Under the pieces are notes generated by a model that made no database searches, was not told the origin of the DNA, and saw only the letters and a list, made by a program, of their open reading frames with translations. A stretch of 64,000 bases of DNA, taken from positions 496,001 through 560,000 of the forward strand of contig JAXBDG010000012.1 of the NCBI GenBank assembly GCA_036320915.1, read 5' to 3'. Each line of letters begins with the position of its first letter. Position 1 is the first letter of the stretch. The position numbers and the translations under genes are program-made. Positions 6,058-29,760 of the stretch are shown here, piece after piece. The stretch is from Linnemannia elongata (Eukaryota; Mortierellomycota; Mortierellomycetes; Mortierellales; Mortierellaceae).

Positions 6058-9000
6058 CTACATGCACCCGTGCGACGAGAGAGCCGCCGTATGGCCGGCA
6101 ATCGCCTCTTCAACAGGCTTGACCACAAGCTCCGGGTAGTGCTGGCTCCGCATCATCGCCAACGTACCATACGCTCGCTCCACCATATCATTCTCCAGAT
6201 ACGCCGACACCATGCTCTGAAACGTCGATGGCTCCTTGAGAATCGCGCCTCCATCCTTCGGCCCATAGGGGTCCTTCATCGCCCGGAATATCTCCTCGGC
6301 AGAATCAATGTCGTTCGCCTGTCCAAAGCCTCGAATCAGCGTGTTCTCAATGTATGTGCTCGACGGCTGTCCCGACGCTAGCAGCTCGTTCCGAACCTCT
6401 ACAGCTCGTCTTACATCACCGTTCGCAATGTAGCTCTCAATCAGGGACTGGTACGCTGGTCCCTTAGGCACAATCCCACTCTGGCGCATGTGGCCGAAAA
6501 CCGAAATCGCCGTGTTCACATCTCGATGCTCCACGCCATAAGCATGAATCAAAGCACTAAAATGCGCCTCGCTCGCCCTCACGGGTCCTCGTCGCAACGA
6601 TTGGATTAGGCGGTTTGCTTCGCCCAAGTCGTATGGTTGAATGCACGCAAAGGCTTCAATCAGCAACGTATACGTGTGCTCTGTCGGCGAGAGCTTGCGT
6701 CGCAGCATGTCGTCGTAATAGTCCAGTGCTGCATCCCGATCCTTCTTTTGACGAACATAAAACTGGATCATGGCGTTGTGGGGTCCTTGCCGGGGCTTGT
6801 ACTTGGGACTGGCGGTCATTTCCTTGAAGAGGTTGCGGGCCATTTCCTCGCTCCCAACTCGTGTGCAGGCGCTAATCAGTGTTCCGTAGGTGATGGCGTT
6901 GGGGCGGATGTCGTGCTTGATCATGTCATCGTAGACCTCCAAAACCCGCTCGATCTTACGGCCACGAGACAATTTTCCGATAACGACGTTGTAAAAAAAG
7001 ATGTTGGGCTTGATGTTGTGTCGCTTGACCTCCTCCAGTATCTTAAGCGCATCCAAAGCCTCGTCCACCGCCCCCGTGGTTGTAGCTATCAAAAGAGTCG
7101 CATATCCAGTCGCGTCTGGGAACTGTCCCAACTGAACAATGTCGTCGTAGTTCTTCTTGGCACTCGTCATATCACCCAAGGTAGCATTGGCGACAAGCAT
7201 GGCGTTGTAGACCTCGTACTCGGCAGCGCGGCGGTGGGTCCTGTCCTTGATCGCATCAATGGAACGCAAGGCGATGTGGTAGAGTTTGTGGTAGTTGGTT
7301 GCTCGTTCCTTCTCTCTCTTGGCGCAGACTTGAATGGTATCCGCAAGAGCCTGAGGACTAGGGAGTTGATCCTGCTTCATCATTTTGTCGATTTCCTCCA
7401 ACGCCACTGCCGCATAACCGGCCTTGCACGCACGTATAATATGCTCCGAAGGATCCCCATTGCGAAGGAGAACTGGCGCACTTGGGTTCGGTGAGACCTT
7501 GCGGCGATTCCGACTGCCATTGTTGTGCTCGCTCTGACAGCCACAAAGACTTTGCTGCTGGCAAGGTTGGTGTTGATGCTGGTGCTGATGTTGAGGCTGG
7601 TGCTGATGTTGAGGCTGGTGCTGATGTTGAGGCTGGTGCTGATGTTGAGACTGGTGTTGATGTTGGTGCTGGTGCTGGTGCTGGTGCTGTTGCTGGTGCT
7701 GTTGCTGTTGCTGGTGCTGCGACGTGGGCTGTTGAGGCAATGATTGCTGTTGTTGATATTGTTGAGGCTTGGAGGATTGAGGCACAGGATGCTGTTGTTG
7801 ACGCATGTGTGAATCAGGGCTCTGACTCTGATGATAAGAACTTCGTTGACGGGGAGTGGCAGACTGCAAAGTTGTTTCTTGTCCAGGTGTAAAATCCTCT
7901 GGGATAACGAGTTGGAATCCCGGATAAATCTCCTGTACTGCAGTGTCCCATGCCAGCTGTCCCGAATAGTCGCCGAGCTTAACAAAGGAAAGCGAAATTT
8001 TGGAGCAGGACTCCCAGCTCGGGATAATGCTCATCTCCTTGGCATCCAGCAAGATCTCGATGAGTTTTTTGTAGCGAGAGTAGGTCTTCGTGAGTGTTGC
8101 CTGTAGGGTAAGCAGAGTCTCGATATCAGTGCTGCTGAGCATAGCCCTGACGACAGAAAGGCCCGACGTCACCTTAAGCTCGCGGTAGCTCCTGAGCACC
8201 CCATCTGCAAAACCAGCCGACGCCAACAACCCATGTCTAGTTAATATATTTGACCGACGATGAGAAGTTAGTTGGTTTTCGACAAAGAGAGACGTTACAA
8301 GAACAGGGTCGAGTCTGATGTGATTCCAAGCACGAAGATAGCTCTTTTTTTCTTCTTACCTGTCGAGTAGTTTGGCAAGCGAGAGTGCTTGGATGAAATC
8401 GCTGCTGTGATTAGCAATATCCTTGGCCAGGGAAGTATAGGTGTTTTTTTGGCTGACTGATAGAGAGCGGCCTTGGGTATGATGGCAGTCGACAAGCATT
8501 ACCAGCGCGCGTTCGGCGTCCTGGGGATTATTCATGTCGAGAAACTGCGCAACGATCCGGTTTGAAAGAGCTGCGTCGGCATAGACGCCTTGGTGCTGCA
8601 TTTCTTGCAGGCAGGGGAAAATGGCACGGACATCCTGGCCATTGATGGCTTCCCAAGCGATCTTGGAGAGTTCGTCGTGCTTTGGCGGCTTAGCAGAGTT
8701 GGAGCTGTTGCTGCTTGGGGTATGTTGGCTGTGCTTTGAGTGTTGGCCTTGATGAAATTTGAGGTTGGGGTTGAGGGATGTCTGTATCTTGTGGTGGATG
8801 ATGGTGTTTTGAGCATTAGTGCCGGTGTTGTTGGTGCTGTAAAAAGAGTGGTTGTTAACGGTAGGGTTGTGGTTGTTGCTGCTGTTCTCCCGGCTGGCCT
8901 GGGAGGAAGAAAAGGAGCGAACTGGGTTGGAGGGGGCGTTTGCGGACACAGGTTGGGTGGTGCGGTGAGTCAGGGAAATGACTTGGTTCTTGGGGCTCGA

Positions 9001-22288: not shown

Positions 22289-23641
22289 CTAGATTTGCTG
22301 TCGGTCCTTCTCGCTCTCAAGACGCGAATACAACAAATAAATGGCCATCTGGTTCGACTCTGGGGTGCCTGTGATAGTGACCAAACGCTCATCACCAGAC
22401 TTGTTGGGTTGGTCAGCAATGGAGATCTGTGATCCGGACGCCTTGCGAATTTCGTTAATCTTGGATCCACCCTTGCCGATAACACTTCCAACCATGTCGT
22501 TCGGAATAAAGATTTGCTGAGCTTGTGTGTGTGCGGCAGAACCTGAAGAGGCACCAAATTCCTGAGAGTGAGGGGCCATCGGACCCGCATGAAGGTGTGA
22601 TCCGTAACCTCCTGAGCCGCTGCCACTGTGGAAAGACGGGCGAGCGCTGCTGCCACCATGACGAGATGATCCATATCCTCCCATGGCTCCACCAGCTCCG
22701 TAGGCGTCACGGGAGACGGGTTTGTAATGAACAGTGTTCGCGCTGCCATAGCGATCCCGCTCTGTCTTCTCTTCCAGAATCAGGCCAATATGGTAGACAG
22801 CAATGTGGATCGCATCGGGGACCCCGATGATGGAGACCACGCGTTCGGTGGAGTTGGGTAGTAATTCCTCCAAGGCCGTGATTCGGGCTCCTGACGCCTC
22901 CTGCACCTCCTTGATCTTGGATCCGCCCTTGCCAATCACCGATCCCATTTTGTGGTTACCGGCCAAGATGCGCATGGTTGTTGACTCTGACTCTGGTTCT
23001 ACATCACCTCCAGCTTGCTCGGCAATTGTTGTTTTAGCAATCAACGAAAACGCCTAATAGGGTCAATTCGCCATAAGATGGTGTTATTACTATTGATATG
23101 GAGACAAAGTATCAAGTAGTAAAACAGCAGAGGGGAATGTAAATTAAAAGCACGAACCTTTGCAACGGCATCCAATGGTCCGACAACGGTCAAGACACGT
23201 TCAACAGCTCCGGGGATCATTTCCGAAATGTTAACCCTAGCCCCAGAGAGTTCGCGAATGTCTTTGACATTCTTGCCTGACTTGCCAATAATCACGCCAG
23301 CTTCCTTGGTCGACACAAGGGCCCGGATCGTTGTTACTGGAGGCGCATCATCATCATCAATTTCGCTCATCTTGACTATGATATCAGTGTGAAAAGGGTA
23401 AGGTGAGTTCTTTCATGGATATAAGAACAAAGCGTGGGCAAATACAAAGACAGAGAACACCGTAGCACTTACTATCGTCGGATGTCTCGCGACGATGCAG
23501 CGGCCTCTGGGGGGCATCAGGGTTGGTGTCATTCATGGCGTGGCGTTTGTGCCGGCGGCTTTCCAAGTCCGAGTCATGAGCGTCTGGTTCATCAGATGAC
23601 AAAGCGCGCTTTCTCTCCTGTTGAGTCGTACTCTCTGACAT
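22289..23641 (-). CDS. Three-KH-domain RNA-binding protein (hnRNP K/PCBP, Rnc1/Pbp2 type)
   Basis: Single-stranded RNA-binding protein, by family a regulator of mRNA stability or translation. Exons 23641-23473, 23375-23158 and 23053-22289 join in frame to 383 residues. KH1 (about residues 65-135) has EAGVIIGKSGKNVKDIRELS. KH2 (about 155-220) has MGSVIGKGGSKIKEVQEASG. KH3 (about 310-378) has MVGSVIGKGGSKINEIRKAS. All three retain the GxxG loop (GKSG, GKGG, GKGG), so RNA contact should be intact. A Gly/Ser/Tyr/His-rich linker separates KH2 and KH3. The charged N-terminus (DSDLESRRHKRHA) looks like a nuclear-localisation-type patch. The domain spacing matches fission yeast Rnc1 and budding yeast Pbp2/Hek2. 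Confidence 0.92.
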
Positions 23642-24644
23642 GCTTGGTAAGGGCTTCGTTCACGGTGAGGTTGGGGTGAGGTAGACAGCCAAATGGGATA
23701 GTTGTGTTTGCCAAAGGAGACGAAAGTGTGGTGGGCGATCAATGAAGCTGATTATGGCGGGGAGGGGCAGTAGAGTACTGGCTGAATCACGATGCAATGA
23801 AAGTGGTCAGGGAAATTAAGGAGGTGAGGGTACAGGCTAAAGAAACCAAGGGTTTATGATAGAAGGTGAGGAGAGAGTGAGTGAGAGAGAAACGCTCGCC
23901 AAGAGCGACAAAAGAAATGGTCTCCACTTGACGGTGAATGTGGGTTAGATCAAGCTGGAGAATGAGTGAGAGGGGGTGGCAGTGGGTAGGAACATAGATA
24001 GATAGGACGAGGTGGCATTGGGGGAGAAGAACAAAAACATTGATCGGTCGTATCACAACGCGTGTTATGGTGACATAAACCAGGGAGAGTGGCAAAGAAA
24101 CCATGAAGGGAGAATAGAGGGGAGAGAGGGGGAGAGAGAGAGTGGCAGGTGGAGTGGTGGGAGTGTCCCTGTACGCGTGCTGGACTGCATCCGGTGTCGC
24201 TGCTATTGCCGGTGTATTGGGGTGAGGTGGCGAAGGAAAAGGTGCCTATGTCAAGAACTGGCAACTCATCCGTGCGTCTGGTTGGTCACTCCATCCATGC
24301 CAACTGACGGACAAGATCCTCCTTTGACTGCACGCCAAAAGATAACGCCATCGTTTTCGTGTGTGTATGTATATATATCTTTATCCATCTCTCTTGATGC
24401 CTTCTCTCTTTGGTTCGTCCTTTACTTGGTAGGCGCTCGCTTGTTGACGACTCTTCTCTATCCTGTTTCCTGCTGATCCCGGATGTAGCGTTTGGCGAAT
24501 GGGAGACTAAAAAAGGCGGTACGTTGGAAGCATACGATGGGTTTACCGTGAGGGTTGCTCTTCTTGTGTGGTAAGAGGAGCGCCGTGAAGAAGGAAGGGA
24601 GGTTGAGTGCGTTGGTGTAATGGTTGTGCTAGGCTGAACTTGGC
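23642..24644. other. Intergenic between KH gene and nuclease locus
   Basis: Leader of the KH-domain gene, with GA-rich runs near 24105-24150, and about 500 bp of unassigned sequence. No domain-bearing frame was found; the longest frame (24012-24476) is compositionally simple. Confidence 0.45.
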
Positions 24645-24678
24645 TGCAGGACAATTGGCGCCAAAATGACGTCACCGA
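24645..24678 (+). repeat. Left inverted blocks flanking the nuclease gene
   Basis: Block 1 is TGCAGGACAATTGGCGCC (24645-24662) and block 2 is AAAATGACGTCACCGA (24663-24678). Both recur in inverted orientation at 29711-29754. Block 2 contains the palindrome TGACGTCA, which is also the CRE/ATF site, so a regulatory reading is possible. Confidence 0.65.
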
Positions 24679-24752
24679 GGTCGCGTCATCGTGAAACCAA
24701 TCCCCACAATCCGTCACTAATGCGTGGTGTCGCACACGCGTAAAATTCTAGT
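24679..24752 (-). other. Short 3' region of the nuclease gene (candidate guide-RNA scaffold region)
   Basis: Only 74 bp separate the stop codon of the nuclease gene from the left inverted block. In TnpB and Fanzor systems the guide RNA is typically made from the noncoding end of the element next to the gene. This strip and the last part of the coding region are the place to look. No specific RNA structure was established by eye. Confidence 0.2.
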
Positions 24753-27700
24753 CTAGGCTCGTGTCGATTTCCCACGCCTTCCCTGATCCTGACTGGAGGC
24801 GGCCATGGTTCTCTTGCGACGTCCAGGGGCTCGATCGGCGGAGGTGCTGCTGTTGGCCACACTGCTCGAAGTTGTGCTGGATCCCTCGTCAGAGCTAGCC
24901 TTCCAGGGGTATGTACCATCCGCGTTGATAGGCTGGAGGTAATCCGGCCTCTCATGCCTCACCAGGTGTCCTAGAGCGATCTTGCACATGTTCTCGGCAG
25001 CCATGACATCTCTATGATGAAAGATCTGACAGTGGAAGCAGTAGAAGGTCCGTAAGGTCACTTGTGCGACAAAGTGGGTGCACCTCGGACACTTCTTCGA
25101 CGTATAGTACTCGTTCAGTCCTACAACCACATATCCTAACGATCGCGCCTAAAATTGTGAATAAAATCACGTTAGTATTTTTTTTTTTTTTTTTCATTCA
25201 ACGACATTCACTTACAGTGCTTTGAATCAAAGTTATCAATAAAACAGGCCTACCTTCTGAACGAAATACGAAAGAAAAGTCGAGTGTAGCGACGAGAGCC
25301 TGGACTTGCTTGAGAATTGCCCGAGACCAACGCCAATTAGGATCGGATCTGTGCTCTTGTTATCTTCCACACGCCGACCCAGACTACCGCCAACAATGCC
25401 GAGCAGACTCTCCGCGATGGCTTGGTACTCTGCTTGCCGCGCCCGCCTCATGTCCCAATGATGTCTCTGATACCGATGGTCGTCGCCAGAATAGAACTTT
25501 TTCAGTCGTTGCTCAACCTGTTCAAGCTCTCTCACATACTCAACAACGCTCGCACCTTGTCCTCGAAGGGGTGGTAGATGGGTCTCGATGTACGCAATGG
25601 AGTCGTCCTCCTCGCCTTGTAGTGTAGTCAGTTTCTGATTCTCGAGCCACCTTCTAAAGCGAAATGTTGGCTGATACACAGCTTTCTGTTTCACCGCCAA
25701 GTTATAGAAGGCAGGTTTCGATAGGGTCACGAGCGAATCCGTTACTGGGGGTTGCGCGGAGGTGAAGGTGGAGGCTGACGCGGGAACTGGATTCAAGGTT
25801 GTTGTCCATTGGCTAGCGGGGCTGGTCGATTCCTGATTGGTGGTGACGATTCCGTCCATGCTGGAGCCCTCCTCAGCCTTCTCCTTGCCATCCAGGCCAT
25901 TGGGCAAATGTGCAAATGCGCCAACTACGCATGCCTGGCCCCCGTCTAAAGTGAGAATCTTCATCCTGTCCACATCTTTGCCAGGCCAAAGCTCTCTGAT
26001 ATCCTGCTCGCTCCTAATCACGTTCCTGATTTCCTGAAGGAAACTGTTGGTCCCAGCAACGGTTGTTGTGATTCTTGAGGGCATATCCTCCTCGGCTAAC
26101 CTTTTGAAGCGAGCATCCTGCCGTTCTCGTAACTTGAAAGTTAGAACTTGTACCAAAAAGCCATCCGTTCGGATCGATCCTTGCGGGATGTAGCCGCCTT
26201 GGTGATAGTCCCTTGGCTTGGTCTTTTCAACTAGCTTCAAATGATCTCGTATCTGGTCCAAGGAGATCAGACTAATGGCCCCGCGATGACCAGCCTTGCG
26301 CTTTTGACGGTTTGACAGTCCAACTGGATCAATGTCTGAGATGAAATGCTTGATAATAACCCCAGGCTCTCGACCTCCAATCCAGTCCTCGAGATCCTTA
26401 ATAGATGTGAGAGTGGTAATGTCTTCGTCCAAGAGGGCCAGCTCGACCAATCGCTGCTTCAACAAAGGTCGCTTCCAAAAGAACGCAGCCAACTCACGTT
26501 CTGAGAAAGTCACAAACGGTTGCTTCGAGGACGTGACGGGGGCGAGACGCCAGCTGTTCGGAATGAGTTCGTTGAGGGCAAGGTAGTTTTCGGCGGCCGA
26601 GATGTTTTCCTGAATCCGGATATCGATGTGGGCTTCTATTCGTCCCTTGTCCTTCGAAGCTTTGACCTACAGTAAAAAGTCAAGTATTAGCAATAAACTT
26701 TATAGTAAAAACTTCAGTGCATTCTTGTTCGCACCACTTGTATCCTTACCTGATCGTGCAAAAGGTGGGAGCCGTTATTATACATCTTCTTCAGTTCCAC
26801 AGAAAGTTGTTCTGCGACGGACCGCACCAGAGTGCTCGCTGAGAACAGCATTGTTTCGTTTAGCTCGCTCCGATTTCTACAGATGTCGAAGAGTTGAAGC
26901 CCTACCAAGATGTTGATGAAAGTGTTGACGGATTTGCCGATTTTGGAGTTCTTGTCTGGAAGATTTCTTGAGTACAGGTACGTCAGGAAAGACCGAAGGA
27001 ACATGGAGTGTTTGTTGTCCTTCCTTTCTGCATCCAAGTCGCCTGAATCCTCCTGGATATCGTCGCCGTCGGCGTCGGCGTCATCACACTTGTTGGTCAA
27101 GGGCTCAATCCTCCCACACAGATAATCCAAAGTATCTCGCTCGTCCACTGTCACCGCATCCCGCCGTGCCTCCAACCGCTCCGACTCCAACATGGTCTTG
27201 CCTGCTTTCCTCAGTTCCTGTCGCTTAGACTCCTCCGCGGCCTTCATACGGATCTGCAACATCTCCAGAAACGCACCAATGAGGCGTTGAGCCTTTCTCT
27301 TGATATCCACTGCTAGCGCTGAGCCCTCGTTGATACAGTTGATCACCTCAAGCTGTAGATCAGGCCGATCGATCAAAGCTCGTTCAACGTTGGTTTTCAA
27401 AGTACCGACCTCCAGCGATGATATGGGGTGGTGCCAGCCGAGAGACTTAATGAGACTCTGCTTGCCCTTCTCTGCGTTCGATTTCGGTCCCTCATCGGAT
27501 GACGTCTTTTTCTGGGTCTTCTTCGCCTTCGCATCCTTCTTTTTGCTGTCCTTCTTGGTGCTGCTGGAGGAGGTGTCGTCGGGGGACTCGGGAACCTTCT
27601 TGGGCGGTTTCCAAACAAGTTGCTTGGCCTTGGGTGGGGGCTCATGAGCCAACTTCCCTTGTCGCTCCTTGAAGGAAAATCGCTGACGATGTCGAGGTAT

Positions 27701-29092
27701 CCGTGTTCTTGTTAATGGTGGATGACTATGGTCTTGCGGATTCGAAGATGTCGAACCAGAAGGCTCCAAACTAGCAATGGATGGCTGCTGAAGGAAGGAT
27801 TCAGAGTTCTTGGTCACCGGTGCTGGGGATTCGATAGTCCGATACCGATTAAAAGATCTCGGAACTCGCAATCGTGCGATAGCATCGTTGGAGGATCTAT
27901 CAATTTTTTTTAAGAAATACAAACATGATGAGGTACGATTCACACATATAGATTGGTCTCGATTGGCGTAACAGTAAATAGTTACCTGGGCTGAGCTCCC
28001 CGTATTTGACTCTGTTTGTGTTGATCATATCGCATGCAGAAATCCTGAAATCGGACCTGTAGTTGCTCGAACATGATCTGAGAACCGGGCCGGGATCCAT
28101 CAGTTTCAAGCCTGGTTTGTTGGAGATCCACAAAGACTCTGGTCGAGTTGGCGAAGTCCTGATTGTTGGTGTTTTTTGAGATAACCCGGTTGTCAGATAG
28201 ATAACCCAACACAATGTCCTTTGGGTCTATTAAGTAACGCAAGATATCAACCACGGTCAGAGCTTCATCTGAAAAAGAAACCAATATCAATGGATAAAAA
28301 ATTTCCCACTTGATCATTACCTGCACGGTCGATTGACTTGATAATAGAAAAATTAGTCGCAGGGCCGAGGGAGTGAATGTTCTTGTTATAGTCGTTACGA
28401 CTCACAGCCGCCAGAGCAGTCAACTGGGAACGAGAGACGCCAAGAGCTTTCAAAAGATCTGGAACGTTGTACACGAGGATGAGACCTCTGGATATGGGAC
28501 GCCATAGAGTTCGGATGGAGGTGTACGCCATCATGTCCGAGTCCCTAGAGATAACAATGTCGTCTGGCTGCGCATCGATCGCAATGGCCAAGTCCGCTTC
28601 GGTGTCGGCAAGTTTAACAGTCCAGCCCGCGTTCTGCATGTACTGAGCAAATCCCGAGCGACTTTCCCGAGACCAGTAAAAAGACGAGGCCAGGCTCGAC
28701 CGAACATCAACAAAGTGATGTTTGCTAATGCGGAGACCGTTGTCCAGACGGGAGTCAAGAGTGTCCAGGGCTGTGGTGGTGCGTTCTAGTGCTCTGTCCC
28801 GTACTCTCTCTCGCTCGGCGGCTGTGTAGCTCTTTTCCACTGCCTGATAGCCGTCGATGTAGAGTGACATATCCAGGGAAGACCCATACCGACGGACTTC
28901 CTCCTCGAGCATGCGGTGTGCGACATCTGGTGGATTGTTGGAGTAACTGTTGCGAATGACCTGGTGGCATGTTCCGAGGACATCAAGTCTGCGATGTTTG
29001 TCTGGAGCGATTTTGGCGATGATCGACTGGTACAATAAAGCAGGGTTGTAACCCTTGCGTCGTATAAATGGGAACCAAAAAGATATACCCAT
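24753..29092 (-). CDS. Two-domain nuclease: N-terminal FEN1/XPG-like domain fused to C-terminal Fanzor/TnpB-like RuvC domain
   Basis: Exons 29092-28321, 28268-27986, 27896-26750, 26666-25254 and 25148-24753 total 4011 nt (1336 residues), with GT/AG sites and frame kept at every junction. Residues 1-257 follow the FEN1/XPG plan: MGI start, D37, D80 (YIDG), E165 and D167 (TEADLA), D184 and D186 (SRDSD), and D234 before a helix-hairpin-helix-like SLGPATNFSIIKSI. Human FEN1 has its acids at 34, 86, 158, 160, 179, 181 and 233. A Lys-rich linker lies near 430-480. The C-terminal part has RTDG near 900, RuvC-I LTLDGGQ (D975), GVGLGQF near 1180, NEYYTSKKCPRC (E1218, C1225, C1228), CFHC (C1242, C1245) and HRDVMAAEN (D1252). 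These are hallmarks of Fanzor, the eukaryotic RNA-guided TnpB relative. RNA guidance here is inference. Confidence 0.85.
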
Positions 29093-29710
29093 AGCGGCTG
29101 TTGCGGGCTCATGGGAGGAAGAAAGGAAAGAAAGTGGAGTGAGAGTTCTTTATTGTGTACGCGCTCAATTTATATGAGATGTTTACCAGTTGATACTTGC
29201 AGGTCGTATCAACTGTATGTTCGATCACGTCACCCAGACGAGACAGTATAAAGATCAGCTATGGGAGCGAGTCATCTCGCACAGGGAAATCGGCTACAGA
29301 CAAAAATAAGCTTAGCTTCTCTTTGGAGACGATACTTTCGCCACAGTTCCTTCTTTAGTGCAGAGGTAGGACTGAAAAGAGAAAGAGGCTGATTTAGTGG
29401 CCAAATAGGCCAAAGCATTCGAGGACAGCAAGGCAGAGTTAATGGCCCTTCTTGAGAAGATATACCATGCACTCGAGGCTAAAATGAAAAGAAAGTGCTC
29501 GTTACAGTACCTCCGAGAAACAGTAGCTTTGCTACACAGCGCCTATCTTCAAGTCAAAGGCGTAAATAAGAGTGGTGCTGGACGAATAACTACTGTATTG
29601 TGTCAAATGATCTCATTGAGCCGACTTTCATTGTATTATGGTGTCAAATGAAAGTAAAATCAATCCATATTAGGAAAGATTTCATGCTTAGCTTCAGCCA
29701 ATAGAATTAT
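29093..29710. other. Upstream region of the nuclease gene
   Basis: 618 bp between the start codon and the right inverted blocks; presumably the promoter. It holds a plus-strand frame at 29442-29651 (69 residues, starts MALLEKIYHALEAKM) without known domain. A small hairpin lies at about 29625-29654 (CTTTCATT ... AATGAAAG). Confidence 0.4.
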
Positions 29711-29760
29711 GGCGTCCATTGTCCTGCACCCCTGAACTTCGGTGACGTCATTTTAGGCGT
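29711..29760 (-). repeat. Right inverted blocks flanking the nuclease gene
   Basis: Read on the minus strand, 29754-29739 is AAAATGACGTCACCGA, identical to left block 2. 29728-29711 is TGCAGGACAATGGACGCC, 16/18 identical to left block 1. The order of the two blocks is swapped relative to the left side. Just outside block 2 the minus strand reads GACGCCT, echoing the GGCGCC beside block 2 on the left. Confidence 0.65.

Follow-up and report, generated by a model that had tools for sequence, protein, structure and literature searches.

A transposon of the fungus Linnemannia elongata whose single long gene is predicted to join a FEN1/EXO1-type nuclease to a Fanzor1-like protein

We analysed a stretch of 64,000 nucleotides of Linnemannia elongata (contig JAXBDG010000012.1, positions 496,001 to 560,000; hereafter the window) and describe in it a transposon of 5090 bp (24642-29731, minus strand) whose one long gene reads as a single protein, with a FEN1/EXO1-type nuclease in its N-terminal half and a Fanzor1-like protein in its C-terminal half. 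An original prediction, made from the letters of the window alone, had proposed a flap nuclease and a Fanzor relative in one chain, and both sequence comparison and structure prediction support it: the active sites appear intact in both halves, and the element has defined ends, flanking duplications and a motif on one side only. The explanation that we favour, and hold to be rather probable as a whole, is that the transposon carries a FEN-Fanzor fusion that would make an RNA-guided cut at the empty site and process the ends in the manner of FEN1 or EXO1, in homing or retention of the element.

The gene had been read on the minus strand in five exons (29092-28321, 28268-27986, 27896-26750, 26666-25254 and 25148-24753) separated by introns of 52, 89, 83 and 105 nt, with GT/AG borders throughout. 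The exons sum to 4011 nt, which is divisible by three, and the proposed single open reading frame (ORF) of 1336 amino acids was confirmed, with a correction of 42 nt to the start of exon 2. Because 14 residues following residue 257 are missing from the gene models of three relatives (P0001, P0002 and P0035), and an in-frame acceptor lies 42 nt downstream of the earlier exon 2 start, intron 1 more likely spans 28320-28227 and exon 2 28226-27986, yielding a protein of 1322 amino acids to which all residue numbers given here refer. Exon 1 (28321-29092) holds the FEN1/EXO1-type domain and its catalytic residues, and is followed by the corrected exon 2 (27986-28226). Exon 3 (26750-27896) encodes a low-complexity basic linker and then the start of the Fanzor1-like part, placed by alignment with relatives at about residue 497 (base 27421). 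The remainder of the REC and WED domains and RuvC-I lie in exon 4 (25254-26666), and exon 5 (24753-25148) holds the rest of the RuvC active site, the zinc ribbon and the stop codon. The ratio of non-synonymous to synonymous substitution rates (dN/dS) between the window copy and the copy at locus L013 is 0.15, 0.58, 0.32, 0.21 and 0.14 for exons 1 to 5, with few changes behind these values: exon 1 has 10 synonymous and 5 non-synonymous ones, exon 2 has one and two, three in total. Given these values, the homologs and the TNB domain match described below, the gene is more than a chance reading.

Structure prediction and fold comparison assign the N-terminal half to the FEN1/EXO1/XPG (Rad2) fold, the top structure alignments showing about 15-17% identity. 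Catalytic residues were taken by eye from a profile alignment to human FEN1: the seven metal-binding acidic positions are filled (D37, D80, E165, D167, which is Asp for Glu, D184, D186 and D234), and the equivalents of FEN1 K93 and R100 are also present (K87 and R94). The seven acidic residues are kept across the genomic copies. The predicted fold and these residues bear out the FEN1-like N-terminus that had been claimed. The half differs from the Rad2 family in its low identity, in its place within a transposon fused to a Fanzor1-like part, and in its match to Pfam XPG_I, which reaches 17.4 bits on exon 1 against a cut-off of 24.9; among relatives, 9 of 22 match XPG_I at E 0.01 or better (best 2.7e-6).

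In the C-terminal half, structure prediction finds a Fanzor fold (REC, WED, RuvC and NUC) over about 480 residues, with a RuvC triad of D961 (RuvC-I), E1204 and D1238 (RuvC-III) in which the Glu occupies the alternative position beside the zinc ribbon. The ribbon is of the C4 type (C1211/C1214/C1228/C1231) and matches the TNB domain PF07282 at E 8e-13 (48.8 bits against a cut-off of 26.3); fold, triad and domain match together uphold the earlier reading of a RuvC plus zinc-ribbon C-terminus. The WED domain contains TDG at residues 887-889, a Fanzor1 feature according to the portion of PMC10711439 available to us. The protein shares with the Fanzor1 proteins SpuFz1, GtFz1 and PpFz1 the common fold, TDG, the alternative Glu, the zinc ribbon, the RuvC triad and a candidate two-stem RNA at the 3' side; it differs from them in about 500 additional N-terminal residues with the FEN1/EXO1-type nuclease.

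The joined order is not peculiar to the window. A first protein search returned 30 homologs, eight of which (P0001, P0004, P0005, P0007, P0009, P0010, P0011 and P0013) cover at least 94% of the query, and a further search added P0031, P0032 and P0033, which cover 97-99% of P0001; the gene models of 11 relatives span both halves. Every genus named among the homologs belongs to the Mortierellaceae, and three protein searches found no relative beyond this family, although they reached only proteins sharing short words with the query (two of the three scored just the candidates sharing most words), so that absence elsewhere is unproven. The L. elongata genome that we scanned (51 Mb, 32 contigs) holds families of copies with 35-38% identity in the FEN part that all place FEN before Fanzor; on this sequence comparison the fusion is old. 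The same order in other Mortierellaceae proteins and in families A-E agrees with the arrangement first proposed. Two adjacent genes were considered as an explanation and rejected, because the relatives' models and families A-E (L011-L030) retain a single order along with both active sites.

Source databases name one relative a 'putative transposase' and another a 'Rad2 nuclease'. Two further public models, P0020 ('Elongation of fatty acids protein 2') and P0030 ('subunit of tubulin prefoldin', with a Prefoldin domain), match the element gene and appear to be chimeras of it with a neighbouring host gene. In P0013, P0022 and P0023, Lys or Gly replaces the RuvC glutamate (NKFYTS, NGYYTS), and these are probably nuclease-dead copies, to judge from the residues.

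The genome contains 61 matches to the RuvC exon, in places several per gene, and comparison of twenty 10-kb loci revealed sharp boundaries common to copies at unrelated sites. From these boundaries, and from a genome search with end patterns, the left terminal inverted repeat was placed at 29706-29731 (GGGTGCAGGACAATGGACGCCATAAT, minus strand) and the right one at 24642-24667 (GGCTGCAGGACAATTGGCGCCAAAAT as read from outside, minus strand). They are flanked by target-site duplications at 29732-29739 and 24634-24641 (both AAGTTCAG on the minus strand), identical at 8 of 8 positions, so that the window copy shows the inverted repeats and target duplications of a cut-and-paste element. Both ends could be located by the patterns in 15 of the 20 loci, and the 8-base flanks are identical in 10 of these 15 and agree at 7 of 8 positions in one more; when left and right flanks were taken from different copies, no more than 5 of 8 bases agreed in 210 pairs. 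The 22-base left end occurs at 37 places in the genome with up to three mismatches, against none in the control, and a 14-base end at 125 places with up to one mismatch (26 exact; 20 in control). Over 300-390 bp the left end (window 29409-29731, L013 and L023-L029) is 82-92% identical from family to family, even though the proteins of these families are only about 35-39% alike; the left ends are thus either exchanged between families or held by shared machinery or a constraint of another kind. A conserved small ORF (about 50-100 codons), read from the opposite strand within the left 330 bp, was not taken as a gene, its frame being broken in L027 and shortened in L013.

Beside the left end lies the motif TGACGTCAC (29742-29750, minus strand), in the left flank and separated by two nucleotides from the duplication, which begins two bases past it. 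The motif is present with at least 6 of 9 bases at positions -19 to -11 in 14 of 23 left flanks, and in three more (L032, L040 and L051) it is shifted one base further out. Other offsets in the left flank gave at most 2 of 23 and right flanks, on either strand, no more than 2 of 20, and 1.0% of random places matched; the whole genome has just 219 occurrences of TGACGTCAC. The right ends of families A-E also contain the motif core, as CGGTGACGT, and a pattern built on CGGTGACGT found 46 genome places against 2 in the control. TnpB and Fanzor systems, as described in the part of PMC10711439 at hand, have their target motif beside the left end and take their guide from the right flank; by this analogy, the geometry of the flanks would correspond to a target-adjacent motif (TAM) TGACGTCACNN followed by a guide predicted to start with the duplicated bases. 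The same source, in that part, reports that in insect-virus Fanzor1 the duplication is thought to belong to the RNA scaffold, an arrangement that would shift the position of the guide here.

Some insertions lie next to older copies. At L026/L074 (C31:23675-23905) a copy has inserted, at the same motif, into the right end of an older one that belongs to another family, and the flank of L030 resembles that of L026. The left flank of the window copy (29740-29759) resembles the inverted right end of its own family (CGGTGACGTCATTTTAGGCG), and this copy may, from that resemblance, have landed beside a remnant.

Between the stop codon and the terminus of the element lie 111 nt that fold into a short and a long hairpin (-40.2 kcal/mol, z -2.74; 1 of 200 shuffles was as good). 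Hairpin 2, on the minus strand at 24642-24712, ends at the terminus itself and holds CGGTGACGT at 24669-24677; folded alone (24642-24715) it has a z of -3.29, and family C reaches -6.16. Hairpin 1 (24722-24739, minus strand) shows compensatory changes between families: its pairing is kept in 45 of 45 cells across nine distinct sequences, with 2 of 5 pairs altered on both sides, and its covariation score is 0.544 against 0.255 in shuffles, a value reached by none of 500. In families D and E the right ends adopt a different fold. The scaffold of SpuFz1 comprises 75 nt with two stems and a linker, as given in the part of PMC10432273 available. We infer that the 3' tail is a guide RNA scaffold and that the guide is formed by the bases immediately beyond the right end.

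On the explanation that we favour, a guide RNA would take its scaffold from the 3' tail and its guide from the bases just beyond the right end; TGACGTCACNN would serve the complex as TAM, and RuvC would cut unoccupied copies of the same site. The fused FEN/EXO1-like domain would trim 5' ends or flaps at the break, and repair would then be steered to copy the element back in from an occupied copy, as homing or retention. The order of these events is our inference.

Several observations weigh against this explanation. Four of the 15 copies lack the duplication (L013, L014, L027 and L028, with 1, 2, 4 and 5 of 8 bases in agreement), and in six of the 23 left flanks the motif is absent from both -19 and -20 (L013, L025, L033, L034, L035 and L039); two unspecified bases stand between motif and duplication, unlike the Fanzor TAMs in the published descriptions as far as these were available. 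The count for hairpin 1 is inflated, since the nine sequences were cut by hand from families showing the hairpin (A, B, C, F, G and H, out of 28 distinct right ends, with L059, L060 and L070-L073 left out); two of its five measures, the both-side changes and the pair types, do not exceed those of shuffles (317 and 480 of 500 reach them), and a consensus fold computed automatically from 10 right ends gave a weak result (-5.37 kcal/mol) and missed it. Some relatives lack catalytic residues (P0013, P0022 and P0023), and P0013, one of the eight that cover at least 94% of the query, has SGGSDM and NKFYTS at active-site positions. The RuvC-I motif does not show the DPG of Fanzors, reading DGG in the window and DAG or DLG in relatives. 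DPG is reported as near-exclusive and is a signature rather than a strict requirement; since it finds no match here, we class the C-terminal half as Fanzor1-like, on a divergent branch. Finally, P0035, the public model of a near-identical copy (719 of 736 aligned columns agree with the window, the 14-residue gap included), reads on into intron 3 and ends there, joining exons 1-3 only.

This last model is what would speak for there being no fusion protein in the cell and for a gene model that joins two products. We hold this to be very improbable: P0035 still connects FEN with the beginning of the Fanzor module, the 11 relatives' models cover both halves, and the order is kept in families whose FEN parts have diverged to 35-38% identity. 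It is also doubtful that the FEN-like domain acts on RNA, trimming the 5' side of the transcript to give the guide RNA as would the XRN-type 5' exonucleases of the same superfamily, a reading with which the occurrence of XRN1 and XRN2 lower down in the fold lists is consistent, as is the position of the putative scaffold in the 3' tail of an mRNA from which it would need to be released. The motif, for its part, could merely reflect tethering by a host factor of the ATF/CREB type that binds TGACGTCA rather than recognition by the Fanzor; its core is the textbook ATF/CREB site. Tethering normally gives scattered distances, whereas the motif is fixed to within one base of the insertion, on one side only, and a similar sequence lies inside the right ends of families A-E, so that we regard tethering as an unlikely account.

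How the element moves bears on all of this. Between the ends of the window copy we could assign no ORF other than the one long gene, and thus no DDE transposase of its own. The search for one at other places with these ends was partial: 100 of the 125 places of the 14-base end were listed and part of these opened, mostly with 200-500 bases. Besides the twenty 10-kb loci, the places opened were eleven left ends with 201 bases, L042-L044 with 6.5-6.8 kb, and L045-L054 with 350-500 bases (3 exact and 7 one-mismatch matches). At none of the places opened could a transposase gene be clearly assigned to the ends. The fusion protein finds no match in L043 or L044, and six of L045-L054 either lie in other repeats or share a stretch that does not represent an end of this family. 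At C9:199857-207610 (L042 and L078, C9:199700-207750) both family ends and the motif occur with no trace of the fusion gene, together with a repeated 8-bp sequence (TATTATAT) whose right-hand copy is shifted by one base. Between these ends lie a hAT-like gene (PF05699, E 1.1e-16) and a pogo-type DDE_1 gene (PF03184, E 2.2e-21). The latter is within a 150-bp inverted repeat (1185-1335 and 7627-7777 of that stretch), the former inside the DDE_1 insertion between arrays of another repeat, and a 102-bp inverted repeat marks a third insertion. Because each gene has its own surrounding repeats, both look like later, nested insertions into an outer element that looks like a gene-less derivative of roughly 450 bp; a trans-acting role for the hAT-like gene as helper is possible.

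The first insertion at a new site could be the work of either a trans-acting transposase or the fusion protein itself. If the latter, RuvC and FEN would cut the element out at its inverted repeats and place it 10 bp downstream of TGACGTCAC, with no DDE transposase. The gene fills most of an element in which no other ORF was assigned, the places opened yielded no transposase clearly tied to the ends, the right end has the same TGACGT core as the target, and the spacing from motif to insertion is fixed. We nevertheless think it improbable, since we know of no RuvC/TnpB-family protein that inserts DNA, the end search covered only part of the places with the 14-base end, and the C9 genes are possible helpers, though nested-looking; the C9 locus slightly lowered our estimate. 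Little credence likewise goes to the combined view in which the transposon's only protein both moves it, without a DDE, tyrosine or HUH transposase, and guards its site, reading TGACGTCAC, inserting 10 bp downstream with 8-bp duplications and re-cutting empty sites by an RNA from the right flank. A stronger contender, which we entertain as a real if tentative possibility and to which C9 added some weight, is that the element is non-autonomous and moved by a hAT- or Mutator-like (MULE) transposase encoded elsewhere, the FEN-Fanzor protein serving only for retention after excision. hAT elements make 8-bp duplications, as seen here, and a hAT-like gene lies between family ends at C9; without its nested insertions that locus is a gene-less derivative with the motif and an offset 8-bp duplication, and left ends 82-92% alike across families with such divergent proteins are what one transposase's shared ends would look like. 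Against this, both C9 genes look like later arrivals, and a one-sided flanking motif at fixed spacing is, to our knowledge, not a property of hAT or MULE elements. Precedents come from the parts of two papers available to us: Fanzor1 proteins have been found alongside hAT and other DDE transposases (PMC10711439), and transposase-free MuDr-like Fanzor1 elements with 9-bp duplications are described in the Mucoromycota Rhizopus, Phycomyces and Mucor (Bao and Jurka, PMC3627910). Trans mobilisation is compatible with the explanation that we favour, which leaves the step of first insertion unspecified.

Among those precedents, ROr-4, PBl-3 and MCi-4 resemble the present element as fungal terminal-inverted-repeat elements with a Fanzor1 and no MuDR transposase; compared by description only, they differ in having 9-bp rather than 8-bp duplications, and no FEN domain is mentioned in the part of PMC3627910 at hand. 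The predicted TAM here, TGACGTCACNN, is long beside the CATA, TTAA and ATN given for Fanzors in the portions of the literature available. IS200/IS605 TnpB elements likewise have a target motif beside the left end and a structured RNA at the right one; IS605 has neither inverted repeats nor duplications, and it has a TnpA transposase. Academ transposons carry an XPG-like nuclease in a eukaryotic DNA transposon, without a Fanzor part and with 3-4 bp duplications.

Next to the element, the minus strand of the window at 22289-23412 has ORFs with repeated GSVIGKGG motifs, probably, from this motif, a host gene for a KH-domain RNA-binding protein.

The original prediction knew of no described system with FEN and Fanzor in one protein, and our literature searches, whose coverage was incomplete and which do not prove novelty in print, likewise found no published FEN- or XPG-Fanzor or -TnpB architecture. 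If the fusion is as we read it, it would be, as far as we found, the first RNA-guided nuclease of eukaryotes to have a second DNA nuclease, a structure-specific one, in the same chain. It yields testable predictions of the TAM, the start of the guide, the ends of the scaffold and the catalytic residues, and an enzyme able to resect the break that it makes would be of interest for genome engineering. The fusion bears on what Fanzors do for their transposons and on how the break that they make gets repaired.

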